A DNA stretch of 6,536 nt from a bacterium. GTDB lineage: Bacteria; UBP15; UBA6099; DSWB01. This document shows, piece by piece, positions 1-6,536 of this stretch. Each line of letters opens with the position of its first letter. The stretch's first letter is position 1. Below the pieces are notes generated by a model. That model saw nothing but the letters and a program-made list of their open reading frames with translations, made no database searches and was not told the origin of the DNA. The stretch covers positions 1 to 6,536 of the forward strand of contig JAGUYV010000194.1 in NCBI GenBank assembly GCA_020061125.1, written 5' to 3'. The position numbers and the translations under genes are program-made.

Positions 1-1722
1 CAGCATGCCGCGCCCGCCTGGCGTTCTCCAGGTGGAACTCCACGCCGCGCCCGCCTCGCGCTCGGCCGCGCGCATATTCTCCAGATGCTGATACCCGAAA
101 TCGCGCCCCAGGCTTTTGGCGTATTCCGACAGGCCAAGGTTGCCGCCCGAATACGCGGCGTTCACATGCAGCGCGTAATCGAATGTCCGCGCGCGGGATG
201 AGGACGCATCGAAAATGTCAATGAGCGCGCCGCCGAACAGCGCCACGGTCCGGTCCAGAATCACGCCGTCCACGGCGGTATCGCAGGTGGCGCGCGCGAG
301 CTGGAAATCCTTTTCGGCAATGAATTCCTTGAGAACGCCGGTGTCCCCGGCCGGGGCCTCGGCCCACATGCTCATGCCCGGCACATGCATGGGTTTGTGC
401 GATGTGCGGTCCACCGCCACGGTGTTGTGCGCCAGTGTCTGTTTGGCCCAGGACTGCTGCAGGGGGTCGCCGTACTCGTAGCGGCCGGTCTCGGGCAGCA
501 TGTGTTCGCCGAACGCATAGAGGGTGATGGAGAGCTTGTCCGGGTGCCCGTGTCCGCCGCCGTAGGGTCCGAACACGAATGTGGCTGCGGGCGCGTCCAG
601 GCTGTGCGCGTCCTGCCGCAGCACGGCGTAGCCCGAGCTTGGGAACAGGGAACTGCCGTTGCGCGTGATGCCGTTAAGGGCGAAAGGCCCATCGGGCGGC
701 GCCGCGGCGTGCGAAGGCGAGCCATGGGCTGCGCGTTCGGACTGCGCACGCGCCAGGGATTCCAACGCCTCCATGTGCCTTACATCGTGCGCATAATGTT
801 CCCGGTAGAAATCCGCGAAATCCGCATAGAACGGCTGAACGAACGAGCGGCCCTGCGGTCCCGAATCCTTGATGGCGGCCATGGTCGAGTCCGCGAACGC
901 GAAGTGTGCGGCTGCGTCCATCATGAGCTTGAGGGACTTTTTGCCGTTCAGCCCGTCGTGCGCGGTGGCGTCGTCCACTTCCATGTTCCACAGGTCCGCG
1001 CCGTGCCGCGCCGCGGCGTTGGCAAGATGCGCATAAGCAACAAATGCGAAGTGCTGGTAAGTCATAGCCAGCTCGAAGATGTATCCGTCGTCGTTGATGT
1101 GCTGCGCGAGGTGCGAGCGGAACCCGCGCTCGCCGTTCACGGCCGCATCCACCCACTCCGGCCGGTCCAGCACGAAGCCGCACACGCCGATGGCCGCATT
1201 GAACCACCACTGATGGTTGTTGGGCATGCTGCCGCCCATTTCCACGGCCACGGCCGGCTCGAACAGGCCCTGCACGATGGCGCGGTGCGCGTCTTCGGGC
1301 ACGGCTCCGCCGGCCAGGAGCAGCTCATAGGCCTCGGCCATGAGCACGAGCCATTTGGCCTCGTCCAGAAGCTGCGCGTGCAGGGAACCGCCGTTGCGGT
1401 CATTGTGGAACTTTGCTTCAAGCGCGTTGTAATGCTCCGCATACGCGGAAAAGATTTTGAGGGCCGCTTGCGCGTAGCGCGCGTCTCTGGAGCGGGCGAA
1501 CTCCACGGCCAGGTCAAAAGCCAGGGCCTGGTTGTCGTCGTGGGAGCGGCCCTCGCGCGACCATTTGACCACCCGTTCCATGGGGATGGCGAAGGGTTCG
1601 GAAATAAAAGCGTCCAGGTCGAAATCCGCGGGCAGGGCCGCGCACGCGCGGGGCGCCGGGCACGCAACCAGGATGACGCACAGGAACAGGGAGCACAGCG
1701 CGGCGCGGATCATGCGCTCCAT
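1..1722 (-). CDS. Secreted heparinase II/III-family polysaccharide lyase (3' end beyond window)
   Basis: Open for 574 codons from ATG 1722 to the window edge with no stop, so the C-terminus is missing. The family cleaves uronic-acid polysaccharides (heparin-like, alginate or similar) by beta-elimination. What I see: a hydrophobic export signal at residues 4-28 (MIRAALCSLFLCVILVAC) with a possible lipobox LVAC at Cys21, or type I cleavage after ACA; a helical (alpha/alpha toroid-like) region at about 35-330 with the motifs PNNHQWWFNAAIG (167-179) and YQHFAFVAY (222-230); then a beta-rich C-terminal domain opening with GPYGGGHGHPDKLSITLYAFG (385-405) and W-AKQTLAHNTVAVD (425-438). The GGHGHPDKLS and AHNTV motifs are typical of heparinase II/III-like proteins. 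Substrate cannot be told. The second ATG (1713) is the likelier start because the -10 box overlaps the first one. It has its own promoter just beyond the terminator of the upstream AroC-like gene. Confidence 0.88.
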   Translation of the reverse strand, partial: MERMIRAALCSLFLCVILVACPAPRACAALPADFDLDAFISEPFAIPMERVVKWSREGRSHDDNQALAFDLAVEFARSRDARYAQAALKIFSAYAEHYNALEAKFHNDRNGGSLHAQLLDEAKWLVLMAEAYELLLAGGAVPEDAHRAIVQGLFEPAVAVEMGGSMPNNHQWWFNAAIGVCGFVLDRPEWVDAAVNGERGFRSHLAQHINDDGYIFELAMTYQHFAFVAYAHLANAAARHGADLWNMEVDDATAHDGLNGKKSLKLMMDAAAHFAFADSTMAAIKDSGPQGRSFVQPFYADFADFYREHYAHDVRHMEALESLARAQSERAAHGSPSHAAAPPDGPFALNGITRNGSSLFPSSGYAVLRQDAHSLDAPAATFVFGPYGGGHGHPDKLSITLYAFGEHMLPETGRYEYGDPLQQSWAKQTLAHNTVAVDRTSHKPMHVPGMSMWAEAPAGDTGVLKEFIAEKDFQLARATCDTAVDGVILDRTVALFGGALIDIFDASSSRARTFDYALHVNAAYSGGNLGLSEYAKSLGRDFGYQHLENMRAAEREAGAAWSSTWRTPGGRGML

Positions 1723-1748
1723 TATACACGCGCCGCGCGCGCGGTCAA
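1721..1748 (-). promoter_or_regulatory. Near-consensus sigma70-type promoter of the lyase gene
   Basis: On the minus strand the -35 TTGACC (1748-1743) and -10 TATAAT (1726-1721) are separated by 16 nt. The final AT of the -10 box is the first two bases of the ATG at 1722. The expected start of transcription is about 1714, next to the in-frame ATG at 1713. No Shine-Dalgarno-like sequence precedes either ATG. The AT-rich boxes stand out against a GC-only spacer, which makes a chance match less likely. Confidence 0.6.
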
Positions 1749-1761
1749 AAGCAGTGGCGCC

Positions 1762-1797
1762 AAGCAAAAGCGCCCCCTCGCGGGTGCGAAGGAGCGC
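1762..1797 (-). terminator. Rho-independent terminator after the AroC-like gene
   Basis: Minus-strand hairpin: left arm GCGCTCCTTCGC (1797-1786), loop ACCC, right arm GCGAGGGGGCGC (1781-1770), followed by TTTTGCTT. All 12 stem positions pair if two G-U pairs are allowed. It lies about 30 bases past the stop codon at 1828 and directly before the lyase promoter, so it insulates the two genes. Confidence 0.8.
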
Positions 1798-1827
1798 CGT
1801 GACATTTGCGGGTTGCGTTCTGGAGCG

Positions 1828-3165
1828 TTATTTGCCGCCGTTGACTTTGTCTTTCAGCGCACAGTAGCCGTAGTGCGCGAACAGGTGGTCGAGGATCAGA
1901 ATGGCGGCCAGGGACTCGGCCACGGGCCAGATGCGGCCCACGATGGTGGGGTCGCGCCTCGTGATGGCCGACAGGGTCTTGTTCTCCATGGTGTACTTGT
2001 CCACGGTATTTTGCGATTTATCAATGGTGGGGGTGGGCTTGACCGCAATGCGCGCGATCACGGGCTGGCCCGTGGTGAGGCCGCCGGTGATGCCCCCGGC
2101 GTTGTTGCTGTCGAACTGGATCTTGCCGTCCGCGGAGCGCATGCGGTCGTTGGACTGGTATCCGGTCATGTCCTTGACCGCGAAGCCCGCGCCCACCTCG
2201 ACCGCCTTGACCGCGCCGATGCTCATGAGCCGGCCCAGTTCGCCGTCGAGCTTGTAGAACACGGGTTCGCCCACGCCCGGAGGCAGGCCCAGGGCCGCGA
2301 TCTCCACGATGCCGCCGGACGAATCCCCGGTCTGCGTAATCGCGTTGCAGGCGTCGAGCATGGCCTCGGCCGCGTCCAGGTCCGGGCAGTTGATCACATG
2401 GTGCACGCCGTACTTGTCGCGCACCTCGGCCGGGACCGGCTCCACGGCGCGCTGCCGGATCTCCGCAATTTCATTTTCGATCTCCGCGAAGATCGCCATC
2501 TTTTCGAGGAACCGCTGCTCGGGGTTGATGCGCCCGCTCACGAAAATCTGCTGATAGAACGGGTCGTAATCGCAGCGGTATTTCTTGTACTGGTTGTAAG
2601 CGGTCCAGGCGGTTTCCAGATCCACATCCTTCATTTTCACGCCCGCGGCTTCCTTGATATAAGAGAATACGCGCACGCCGCAGGCTTCGAGCACGCGGCG
2701 CGCCACATGGCCCGCGGCCACGATGGTGCTGGTGTAGCGCCCGCTGAAAAAGCCTGCGCCGATGGCGTCGTCCGCGGGGCCGTACTTCATGAACGACGCA
2801 TACGACGCGTGGCCCGGCCGCGGGGTGCGGTTCGTGTCCTGGTACTGCTTGATGTGGATGAAGTGCCGGTCCAGATTGGGGATGAGCACGGTGAGGGGCG
2901 TGCCGTTGGTCTGGTTCCTGTTGCCCGCGTCCTCGATGGTGTCCGCGGCGTTCACGCCCGTGTAAATCACGGGCAGGTCCGGCTCCACGCGCGGGGACGA
3001 GAGTTCGTCCGCACCGGGCTTGCGCAGAAGCAGGTCCGAGTAGATCTCCTGCTCGGTGATGAGCATGCCCGGGGGCACGCCCTGCATGACCGAAGTGAGG
3101 CCCTCCTGATACGAGCCGCCGCCCACGGTCACCTGGAAATTGCGTCCGATGGAACAGCCAATCAT
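1828..3165 (-). CDS. Divergent chorismate synthase-like protein (AroC family)
   Basis: 445 residues from ATG 3165. Chorismate synthase converts EPSP to chorismate with reduced FMN in the shikimate pathway. Scaffold motifs are clear: MIGCSIGRNFQVT (1-13), QGVPPG (28-33), RPGHASY (116-122), TGDSSGGIVE (279-288), PPGVGEPVF-KLD (295-307), MSIGAVKAVEVGAGF (314-328), SNNAGGITGG (353-362), KPTPTIDKSQNTVD (376-389). The active site deviates. In an ungapped comparison with E. coli AroC the FGESHG box reads GGGSYQ, so the first catalytic His is Tyr19; RPGHAD is RPGHAS (second His kept, His119); GGRSSARET is AGFFSGRYT; GRHDP is TRRDP (Asp kept). About 60 extra residues lie between about 185 and 250, making it longer than the usual 350-390. 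An upstream in-frame ATG (3273) is rejected because it lies upstream of the -10 box and lacks a ribosome site. Family is firm; enzymatic activity is uncertain, so no symbol is given. Confidence 0.85.
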   Translation of the reverse strand: MIGCSIGRNFQVTVGGGSYQEGLTSVMQGVPPGMLITEQEIYSDLLLRKPGADELSSPRVEPDLPVIYTGVNAADTIEDAGNRNQTNGTPLTVLIPNLDRHFIHIKQYQDTNRTPRPGHASYASFMKYGPADDAIGAGFFSGRYTSTIVAAGHVARRVLEACGVRVFSYIKEAAGVKMKDVDLETAWTAYNQYKKYRCDYDPFYQQIFVSGRINPEQRFLEKMAIFAEIENEIAEIRQRAVEPVPAEVRDKYGVHHVINCPDLDAAEAMLDACNAITQTGDSSGGIVEIAALGLPPGVGEPVFYKLDGELGRLMSIGAVKAVEVGAGFAVKDMTGYQSNDRMRSADGKIQFDSNNAGGITGGLTTGQPVIARIAVKPTPTIDKSQNTVDKYTMENKTLSAITRRDPTIVGRIWPVAESLAAILILDHLFAHYGYCALKDKVNGGK

Positions 3166-3174
3166 GATATCGAG

Positions 3175-3183
3175 TCTCCTTTC
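3175..3183 (-). promoter_or_regulatory. Ribosome binding site fixing the AroC-like start
   Basis: GAAAGGAGA on the minus strand ends 9 nt before ATG 3165. This ATG also begins the family-typical M-x-G-x-S-I-G N-terminus, so the site decides the start against the longer reading from 3273, which would add 36 residues unlike the family. Confidence 0.8.
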
Positions 3184-3255: not shown

Positions 3256-3283
3256 AGTATAAGGTTCGCGCATCCCGCGTAAA
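3256..3283 (-). promoter_or_regulatory. Sigma70-like promoter of the AroC-like gene
   Basis: Minus strand: -35 TTTACG (3283-3278), 16-nt spacer, -10 TATACT (3261-3256). Predicted transcript start is near 3249, giving a leader of about 85 nt before ATG 3165. The leader holds a small hairpin, CCTCCG / CGGAGG (arms 3213-3208 and 3196-3191, 11-nt loop), just upstream of the ribosome site. The promoter sits right after the stop codon of the kinase gene, where no convincing terminator is visible, so some readthrough from the kinase transcript is possible. Confidence 0.55.
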
Positions 3284-3314: not shown

Positions 3315-4136
3315 TCACCTGAACATGGCGAAAGTCACGGCGGCATAAACCGCGGCGCCCGCGGCGTGGCCGGCCAGGGGCCACAGGGGCGAGGTGGCGC
3401 GCCGGGTGAGCGAGTTGAACAGCAGGAACGAGAAGAAGAACATGGCGCAGCACGCAAGCCAGTCCCCGCCGCGCACGCTGATGTGCAGGATGGCGAACGC
3501 GCACGCGGCGCAGAACGGGATCAGAAACACGCGCATGGGCCAGCGCAGGGCGCGCGTGAGCCAGAACCCCAGCACGCTGCTCACAATCACGGCCACGCCC
3601 ACGATTTCGAATGTGCCGGTCTTCCAGAAGTCCGGGTTCAGCAGGGTGTGGAAGAACGGCCCGATGAGCAGGTAGCCCGCGGCCATGACCGAGCCGATGG
3701 ACACCACGAGCACGGCCGCGGCCGCGGTGTCCTTGGCGATCTTGGCCCACTGGCTGTACTCGGGACTCATGAGGTTGGTGAGGTTCTCGATGCAGGTGTT
3801 GAGCACTTCCATGGCGAACACAAAGGTGATGATCATGAACAGGAAGGCCTTGTGCAGGGCGGGCAGGCGGAAGATGACCGCGAAGCTCATGACCCACAGG
3901 GCCATGCAGAAGTGGAAGCGCATGTTGCGCTGGGTGACCATGACATAGAACAGGCCGTCGAAGGCGTACCAGAAGCTCATGACCACCTGTTTGGCCATGA
4001 AAGTGGGGTGGCTGGATTCGGGTTCGAGGCCCGCGGCGCCGCGCATGTGCGGCCCAAGCAGCGGGTCCAGGGGGGCTTCGGGTTTCGGGGCGCCGTCAGT
4101 CCGGGGTCTGGCGGCTTTGCGTTTTTTCTGCGCCAT
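3315..4136 (-). CDS. DgkA-family diacylglycerol/undecaprenol kinase with extra C-terminal membrane domain
   Basis: 273 residues, twice the usual 110-140. Family members phosphorylate diacylglycerol or undecaprenol in the inner membrane. A Lys/Arg/Pro-rich cytoplasmic tail (1-45) precedes the kinase-like domain (about 53-160): SFWYAFDGLFY (54-64), QRNMRFH (69-75), two membrane helices, EVLNTCIENLTNL (110-122) and AKIAKDTAAAAVLV (131-144). The E-x-x-N-T-x-I-E and AKDxAAxAVL signatures are diagnostic. Oddities: Gln69 sits where the family has Glu (E-R-N-x-R-I-H; equivalent to the metal-binding Glu28 of E. coli DgkA), and Asn121 replaces the usual Asp. The C-terminal part (about 165-273) has three or four more hydrophobic segments (about 177-195, 201-219, 226-241, 254-271) that I do not recognise; it lacks the PSGH and SRxxxxxH motifs of PAP2 phosphatases sometimes linked to this family. 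Ribosome site AAGGA lies 11 nt upstream of the ATG. Start choice is fair; Met47 is an alternative. Confidence 0.82.
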   Translation of the reverse strand: MAQKKRKAARPRTDGAPKPEAPLDPLLGPHMRGAAGLEPESSHPTFMAKQVVMSFWYAFDGLFYVMVTQRNMRFHFCMALWVMSFAVIFRLPALHKAFLFMIITFVFAMEVLNTCIENLTNLMSPEYSQWAKIAKDTAAAAVLVVSIGSVMAAGYLLIGPFFHTLLNPDFWKTGTFEIVGVAVIVSSVLGFWLTRALRWPMRVFLIPFCAACAFAILHISVRGGDWLACCAMFFFSFLLFNSLTRRATSPLWPLAGHAAGAAVYAAVTFAMFR

Positions 4137-4615: not shown

Positions 4616-6031
4616 TCAGTAGCGGTAGTGCTCGGGCTTGAACGGGCCGTTGACGGGCACGCCGATGTAATCGGCCTGCTTCTGTGACAGAGTGGTGAGC
4701 TTTGCGCCGAGCTTGCCCAGGTGCAGGCGCGCCACTTCTTCGTCCAGCTCCTTGGGCAGGCGGTACACATCAATGCCGCGGCCGCTGGTCCACAGGTCAA
4801 TCTGGGCCATGGTCTGGTTGGTGAAGGAGTTGCTCATCACGAAGCTGGGGTGTCCGGTGGCGCAGCCCAGGTTCACAAGGCGCCCCTCGGCCAGAATGTA
4901 GATGGTGTGGCCGTCGGGGAAAGTCAGGGCGTCCACCTGGGGCTTGATGTTGGTGACGGTGACGCCGGGTAGGGCGCGGGCCGCGTCCACCTGGATTTCA
5001 TTGTCGAAGTGGCCGATGTTGCATACAATGGCCTGGTCCTTCATTTTGCTCATGTGTTCGGCGGTGATGATGTCGCAGTTGCCCGTGGCGGTTACGAAGA
5101 TGTCGGCGTAGGGCAGGGCGTCCTCGATAGTGGCGACCTTGTACCCGGCCATGCAGGCCTGGAGCGCGCAGATGGGATCAATCTCCGAGACCCAGACCTG
5201 CGCCTTCTGGCCGCGCAGGGATTCGGCCGAGCCTTTGCCCACATCGCCGTACCCGCACACCATGGCGACCTTGCCCGAGATCATCACATCCGTGGCGCGC
5301 TTGATGCCGTCCACCAGGGACTCGCGGCAGCCGTACACATTGTCGAATTTGCTTTTTGTCACCGAGTCGTTCACATTGATGGCCGGGCACAGCAGTTCGC
5401 CGCGCTCCATCATCTGGTACAGCCGGTGCACGCCCGTTGTGGTCTCCTCGGACACGCCCTTGAAATCCTTGACCAGGCGGTGGAAGAACTGCGGGTCCGC
5501 GGCCAGGCGTTCCTTGAGCACGCGGTTCACGATCTTGAGTTCCTTGTTGTCCGTTGGCTCGTCGAGGATGGCGGGGTTGTCCTCGGCGTAGTAGCCGCGG
5601 TGGATGATGAGCGTGGCGTCGCCGCCGTCGTCCACCACCAGGTTCGGCCCTTTGCCGTCCGGCCAGGTCAGGGCCTTGAGCGTGTATTCCCAGTATTCGT
5701 CGAGGGTCTCGCCCTTGAACGCGAACACGGGCACGCCCGAGGCGGCGATGGCCGCGGCCGCGTGGTCCTGCGTGGAGAAGATGTTGCAGGTGGCCCAGCG
5801 CACATCCGCGCCAAGCTCCACCAGGGTTTCGATGAGCACCGCGGTCTGGATGGTCATGTGCAGGCTGCCCATGACGCGCGCGCCCTTGAGGGGCTTGTCC
5901 GGCCCATACTTCTCGCGCGTGGCCATGAGGCCAGGCATCTCGTGCTCGGCGATCCGGATTTCCTTGCGCCCGAATTCCGCCAGTGCGATGTCCGCGATCA
6001 CGGATTCGGTTTTTTCGTGTACCATGCTCAT
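4616..6031 (-). CDS. ahcY: S-adenosylhomocysteine hydrolase (adenosylhomocysteinase)
   Basis: 471 residues, complete. Cytosolic NAD-dependent enzyme that splits S-adenosylhomocysteine into adenosine and homocysteine, relieving product inhibition of methyltransferases. Substrate-domain motifs: [16 protein letters not shown] (His58), VVDDGGDAT (132-140), [10 protein letters not shown] (191-200, catalytic Glu), [11 protein letters not shown] (Lys226, Asp230) and YGCRES (Cys235). The NAD-binding Rossmann loop GYGDVGKG spans 260-267. His341 (NIGHFDNEI) and His394 ([14 protein letters not shown]) match the other active-site residues, and the C-terminal KPEHYRY tail that reaches into the partner subunit's NAD site is present. 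The insertion of about 40 residues found in many bacterial and plant enzymes lies at about 145-190. All key residues are present, so it should be active. AGGAGG lies 7 nt before the ATG. It follows the cyclase gene by 27 bases, too little for a SAH riboswitch or a leader of its own, so cotranscription is likely. Confidence 0.98.
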
Positions 6032-6058: not shown

Positions 6059-6536
6059 TTATGGGGTTGACTGAAATCGAACCTCATCCTGCGGAGCCGG
6101 CTCGAAAATTTCGATGGACTCGTCAATGCCAAGGACGCTGGTTTCACCGCGGCTGCGAAGGGTCGCGCCGGTACCCATGCCCTCGGCCGCGGCCGCGGTC
6201 ACGCCGATGCGTGTTGTGCAATTATCGGCCACCCAGGGCAGGAGCAGGAACGCGGTGTTGACCGTGGCGCCGAGCACATCGGGCCGGGCGTAGTCCGGGT
6301 GGCCGATGGTTCCGAGAAAGATTTCGCCGCAGTGCAGGGTGATGACAAGTTCGTGGGCGTCGAGCATGAGCCGGGTGTGCAGGGCCGCGTCCAGAGCGCG
6401 CCGCTCGTGCCCCTCGCCCGCGAAAAAGCCCAGGAAGCCGTCGCCCACATATTTCACGGGCACGCCTCGGTGCAGGCGCACGGCTTCGGTTACGGAGTAG
6501 TAGATGCCGTTGATCCAGGCGGCCAGGTCGCGCGGA
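6059..6536 (-). CDS. Class III adenylate/guanylate cyclase-like protein, C-terminal part (5' end beyond window)
   Basis: The frame is open from the right edge (the first full codon starts at 6535) to TAA at 6061-6059, giving 158 visible residues. Class III cyclases make cAMP or cGMP at a dimer interface. What I see: LAAWINGIYYSVTEAV, then GVPVKYVGDGFLGFF with the substrate-selecting Lys and second metal-binding Asp; ITLHCGEIFLGTIGHPDY, matching the conserved GxxxGxIG segment; and RPDVLGATVNTAFLLL, matching the y[DT]vlGdxVNxAxRL segment with Asp at the purine-selecting position, which would favour ATP. The transition-state Arg four residues after the conserved Asn is Leu, and GD before VN is GA, so catalysis is in doubt. 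The first metal-binding Asp would be upstream, outside the window, with any sensor domain. A GTG at 6481 is an internal Val codon, not the start. The tail after about residue 115 is not recognisable. Confidence 0.8.
   Translation of the reverse strand, partial: PRDLAAWINGIYYSVTEAVRLHRGVPVKYVGDGFLGFFAGEGHERRALDAALHTRLMLDAHELVITLHCGEIFLGTIGHPDYARPDVLGATVNTAFLLLPWVADNCTTRIGVTAAAAEGMGTGATLRSRGETSVLGIDESIEIFEPAPQDEVRFQSTP

Follow-up and report, generated by a model that had tools for sequence, protein, structure and literature searches.

Chorismate synthase (AroC, EC 4.2.3.5) is the last enzyme of the shikimate pathway. Both histidines of its active site have been regarded as invariant, the first being credited with protonating the leaving phosphate. 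This residue, His17 in fungal numbering, was proposed to act as the proton donor and stated to be conserved across all known species (PMC2386126, PMC7144000), and other residues, for example arginine, may also donate the proton (PMC12697075). The roles of the second histidine and of the aspartate have been described (PMC3509576), and in the fungal enzyme the contacts to EPSP are made by five arginines, R46, R103, R129, R354 and R362 (PMC11633415).

The window, namely the whole stretch of DNA of 6,536 nt analysed here, harbors an aroC homologue in which the first of these histidines is replaced by tyrosine, and which in all likelihood encodes a chorismate synthase that still functions and that represents a divergent, Tyr-type clade with a rearranged leaving-group site. 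The gene and its surroundings are as follows.

1-1725, minus strand: heparinase II/III-like and alginate-lyase-like protein flanking aroC (Pfam search)
1769..1798, minus strand: good intrinsic-terminator-like hairpin downstream of aroC (consensus match only)
1828..3165, minus strand: Tyr-type aroC homologue, open frame of 445 aa plus stop
3175..3182, minus strand: Shine-Dalgarno sequence AAAGGAGA, 9 nt upstream of the ATG at 3165
3256..3283, minus strand: sigma-70-like promoter match, 9/12 (consensus match only)
3315-4136, minus strand: diacylglycerol-kinase-like membrane protein flanking aroC (Pfam search)
4616-6031, minus strand: adenosylhomocysteinase flanking aroC (Pfam search)

The start at the ATG at 3165 is supported by the position of the Shine-Dalgarno sequence and by the invariance of M1 in 46 aligned relatives. 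Of the promoter, ribosome site and terminator announced by an earlier sequence-only reading, all were recovered, the promoter and the terminator as consensus matches only. The Pfam search of the window gave no aro gene other than aroC. A further open frame at 6059-6535 on the minus strand, without a Pfam match at 0.001, carries GDGFLGFF and NTAFLL motifs and by eye resembles a nucleotidyl cyclase catalytic domain.

The family membership of the protein is evident over its full length. It scored 298 bits against Pfam PF01264 (cut-off 27), with residues 10-428 covering positions 1-326 of the 327 in the profile, and 296 bits against TIGR00033 (cut-off 212), while the 304 bits against PRK05382 (NF003793) lay narrowly below the cut-off of 321. 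The AF2 model (pLDDT 78, pTM 0.84) displayed the chorismate synthase fold, with a VIA Z of 33.3 and an rmsd of 3.2 over 345 residues to 7rca and a Z of 28.3 to the FMN/EPSP complex 1qxo. VIA returned 28 chains at Z >= 8, those among the matches listed being all chorismate synthases, and the strong matches from Foldseek and VIA together were chorismate synthases only. The active-site loops 50-58 and 100-128 were modelled poorly (pLDDT <50), which leaves the placing of Tyr19 and His104 around FMN and EPSP tentative.

Fungal numbering (PMC11633415) was transferred manually, with the GRSSARET and RHDP boxes and the phmmer alignment to 7rca as guides, and this located the following active-site features.

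3109..3111, minus strand: Tyr19, at the site of the invariant His (His10 in S. pneumoniae, His17 in the fungal enzyme)
3022..3024, minus strand: Arg48, the EPSP-contact Arg46 of the fungal enzyme, kept
2995..2997, minus strand: Ser57, Thr55 in the fungal enzyme and ordinary AroC, Ser in both Tyr-type clades
2854..2856, minus strand: His104, an invariant residue of both Tyr-type clades, in the FIHIKQY loop
2809..2820, minus strand: RPGH, Arg116-His119, keeping the EPSP-contact Arg103 and the FMN-N1 His106 of the fungal enzyme
2731..2751, minus strand: FFSGRYT, residues 139-145, with Ser141 and Arg143 kept and Arg125, Ser126 and Glu130 replaced
1933..1962, minus strand: TRRDPTIVGR, residues 402-411, with R403 and R411 as fungal Arg354 and Arg362, D405 kept and His355 replaced by Arg404

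In the phmmer search against PDB sequences, GGSYQ aligned with GESHG without a gap, so Tyr19 truly occupies the position of the catalytic histidine and the first invariant His (His10/His11/His17) of the GESHG signature is absent from this protein, as had been read from the sequence. The other replacements named in that reading are equally present: RPGHAD appears as RPGHAS (residues 116-121, the Asp two positions after the second His having become Ser), GRHDP as TRRDP (residues 402-406) and GGRSSARET as AGFFSGRYT (residues 137-145). For this last segment a refinement applies: its first Arg is lost, but contact with the EPSP phosphate is made by the second Arg (SAR), fungal Arg129, which is kept as Arg143, as is Ser141 (fungal S127). 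All five EPSP arginines are thus retained, as R48, R116, R143, R403 and R411. The second histidine (His106/His110; FMN N1) persists as His119 and the aspartate that primes FMN N5 (339/343/367) as Asp405, in agreement with the earlier statement that both remain. R48, R116, H119, S141, R143, R403, D405 and R411 were invariant in 46 of 46 aligned relatives. The changes are concentrated at the phosphate end of the site, where H17 has become Y19, T55 has become S57 and H355 has become R404, together with R125, S126 and E130 of the GRSSARET segment and the Asp near the second His. His104, three residues ahead of Gln107, was found in all rows of the variant and of its sister clade and in no row of ordinary AroC.

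The protein also carries three insertions, the third of which adds 3 residues at about 101-103.

2917..2946, minus strand: about 10 additional aa at residues 74-83
2401..2625, minus strand: large insertion, about 75 aa at residues ~181-255, helical in the AF2 prediction (block pLDDT mostly 87-95)

The charged insertion previously placed at about 185-250 is therefore real, though wider than the 60 residues assigned to it and accompanied by two smaller ones. It gave no Pfam match above cut-off, and its identification as a known domain was rejected, PDB sequence matches being at chance level only (E 0.7-0.9). The helical block probably lies at the surface or at an oligomer interface.

A scan of genome contigs yielded 157 relatives, of which 80 were kept, and conservation was read from an alignment of 96 rows, some of whose loci overlap. 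About 95 relatives across several phyla possess the same traits almost without exception, at 68-81% identity in the aligned examples. Tyr19 occurs in 95 of the 96 rows (99%), one row having His, and RPGHAS, FSGR and TRRD are conserved at 99-100% per position. Since the quoted substitutions are at least 95% conserved in these 96 relatives (position 139 being more often Ile than Phe), they are due neither to chance nor to sequencing error. In pairwise comparisons, dN was far below dS, namely 0.018 versus 0.98 for the loci L024 and L031 and 0.067 versus 1.14 for L019 and L043. The variant is under purifying selection and maintained, its traits are fixed and no decay is apparent, just as had been proposed. 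A decaying gene, an assembly error or a chance resemblance, which the unusual motifs and nothing else would favor, is vanishingly improbable and was ruled out by the motifs conserved in 96 rows and the low dN/dS; about 95 independent relatives bear the same residues, and the open frame is intact with its start and ribosome site.

Five loci (L084, L132, L135, L141 and L149) contain open frames of about 543-548 aa, and in L084 and L132 a shikimate-kinase-like N-terminal part is fused to ordinary AroC.

The genomic neighborhood of the relatives points toward the shikimate pathway. aroA (protein matching PF00275) lies in the flank of 45 of the 80 variant loci, and in 35 of the 80 it directly precedes the variant gene on the same strand, at a distance of 17-198 nt; in genome G021, the prephenate dehydratase (PDT) gene, aroA and the variant aroC all fall within 9 kb. 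Among the carriers tested, a chorismate-binding family protein of the TrpE/PabB type was detected in 24 of 24, an EPSP synthase over the cut-off in 21 of 24, prephenate dehydratase in 16 of 16 and aroB in 13 of 16. The complete pathway that was looked for in the genome of the window itself, which is 79% complete, was found in part: a PDT and two chorismate-binding proteins are present, but aroA and aroB were not detected, the former absence, like the lack of other aro genes in the window, counting against a working enzyme. This genome also encodes an archaeal-type 3-dehydroquinate synthase (G000:C48:8547-9542; PF01959, 426 bits), so that the first part of its shikimate pathway may run as in archaea. 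G033, a single chromosome with the locus L059, has aroA, the variant aroC, PDT and chorismate-binding enzymes, and neither aroB (TIGR01357) nor PF01959 was detected there.

A canonical aroC was sought in the genome of the window, and the Tyr-type gene proved to be its only AroC-family member; the order mates of this genome possess the same type. Tyr-type AroC is the sole type in 38 of 42 carrier genomes, 37 with a single match and G036 with two variant copies, and the 38 include G027, G033 and G041, each represented by one chromosome record. The candidate explanation of a hidden ordinary AroC beside the variant was rejected, none being present in the own genome or in the single-chromosome relatives. 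Two full-length variant copies per genome were seen in G046 as well as in G036. Only G029, G035, G038 and G040 of the 42 carry another AroC type beside the variant. Double carriage is nevertheless real, because the Tyr-type and the ordinary AroC share one contig in G226 and in G040, and its occurrence in G029, G035, G038, G040, G226 and at least 5 more genomes in the phylum of G038 was counted against the working-enzyme reading.

Surveyed by phylum, the variant was present in 6 of 195 genomes for that of G027 (as the sole type in 5 of the 6), in 5 of 193 for that of G019 (as the sole type in each), in 17 of 119 for that of G038 (at least 6 of them having ordinary AroC too) and in 3 of 6 for that of G021. 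This patchy spread, together with the mixing of phyla in the tree at about 70% identity, suggests horizontal transfer, although the labels of the MAGs may err in places. The earlier proposal of a lineage-specific chorismate synthase is borne out as regards a chorismate synthase with an altered active site, given the sole copy, the aroA neighbor and the intact EPSP and FMN residues, while "lineage-specific" is too narrow for a distribution over several phyla.

The alternative raised beside it was a paralogue with a new reaction; this could be, for instance, elimination from some other enolpyruvyl-phosphate compound, with ordinary AroC supplying chorismate. The altered catalytic His, the new insertion and the ordinary AroC that shares its contig in G226 and G040 speak for it; however, 38 of 42 genomes have no AroC type but the variant, three single-chromosome ones included, where chorismate users are present, the variant retains all EPSP arginines, and in many loci it stands directly behind EPSP synthase. 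This alternative is accordingly unlikely, and the claim went unsupported although some genomes do carry the variant beside ordinary AroC. Still less probable is an AroC-related pseudoenzyme, catalytically weak or with a regulatory role: a residue held to be invariant and several of its neighbors have been lost, but the gene is the sole copy in most genomes and under strong purifying selection, and what remains is exactly the set of residues for EPSP, FMN and the base. Since most carrier genomes have no other AroC type, the protein very probably still makes chorismate, and conversion of EPSP with reduced FMN is the most likely activity in view of the sole-copy distribution and the aroA linkage. 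Searches of the open-access literature found no biochemical or genetic test of any Tyr-type member and no earlier description of the variant, and the same Tyr was not found among proven chorismate synthases in the literature searched.

For a functional Tyr-type chorismate synthase, a course of catalysis can be proposed. EPSP would be held by the five conserved arginines and reduced FMN would be bound in the usual fold. As in ordinary enzymes, His119 would serve flavin N1, and Asp405 would prime flavin N5 for accepting the C6-proR hydrogen. Tyr19 would stand in for His17 as the acid that protonates the departing 3-phosphate, probably aided by the extra Arg404 and by the new invariant His104 from the loop just before the RPGH box. 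The changes at the phosphate corner and the new His104 look like a coordinated rewiring, in which His104 might compensate for the lost His. While the sequence features, their conservation, the sole-copy distribution, the linkage to aroA and the predicted fold were observed directly, we infer catalysis, FMN use and the division of labor among Tyr19, His104 and Arg404. A genuinely different leaving-group step, in which Tyr19 with His104 and Arg404 replaces the His by, for example, a Tyr-His relay or a flavin-radical tyrosine, is a tentative possibility; if true, it would be the first natural exception in a family whose mechanism has been built on that His.

A tree of AroC homologues, as the sequence-only reading had advised, placed the window protein inside AroC diversity, with a Tyr-bearing sister clade comprising L161-L165 from the phylum of G019 (support 100/99). 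A long-branch artefact was rejected as the source of this relation, the clade persisting (100/95) once the longest row had been dropped and the insertions and 16 trait columns had been cut from the alignment; both clades have long stems, and placement beyond the sister relation is less sure. Like the window clade, L161-L165 have Tyr at the His17 site (GESY[AS]), Ser57, His104 and TRRDP. They differ in being about 400 aa or less without N-terminal read-through, in lacking the 75-aa insertion, in retaining GES and GAGRASGRET, in having Glu after RPGHA and in an insertion of their own right after GESY. No other AroC was seen in their genomes. Because the sister clade shows the phosphate-corner change without FSGRYT or the large insertion, the natural order read from these sequences would be the phosphate-corner change first and FSGRYT and the insertion later, and the steps appear separable. 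The FSGR-type AroC of L144 and L169 resembles the window protein in bearing Phe-Ser-Gly-Arg instead of Arg-Ser-Ser/Ala-Arg in the FMN/EPSP segment, whereas it keeps the catalytic His (SSHG/ESHG), GRHDP and both histidines. Since these two also lie elsewhere in the tree and not in the sister group, the first Arg of the GRSSARET segment was lost separately.

A Tyr-type clade that supplies the only AroC of many genomes, with a residue reported in all known species naturally absent, offers a natural experiment on which residues the unusual 1,4-elimination needs. There is also a consequence for annotation, since a check of catalytic residues would wrongly report a broken shikimate pathway in the carriers. 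Compared with ordinary AroC (PF01264, TIGR00033; 1QXO, 1UM0, 1R53, 7RCA), the window protein has the same fold over the full length (Z 25-33) and shares the EPSP-contact arginines, the FMN-N1 His, the N5-activating Asp and the aroA neighborhood. It departs from ordinary AroC in the first catalytic His, now Tyr, in RRDP for RHDP, FFSGRYT for GRSSARET and HAS for HAD, and adds the invariant His104, the helical insertion of about 75 aa and the two short insertions.
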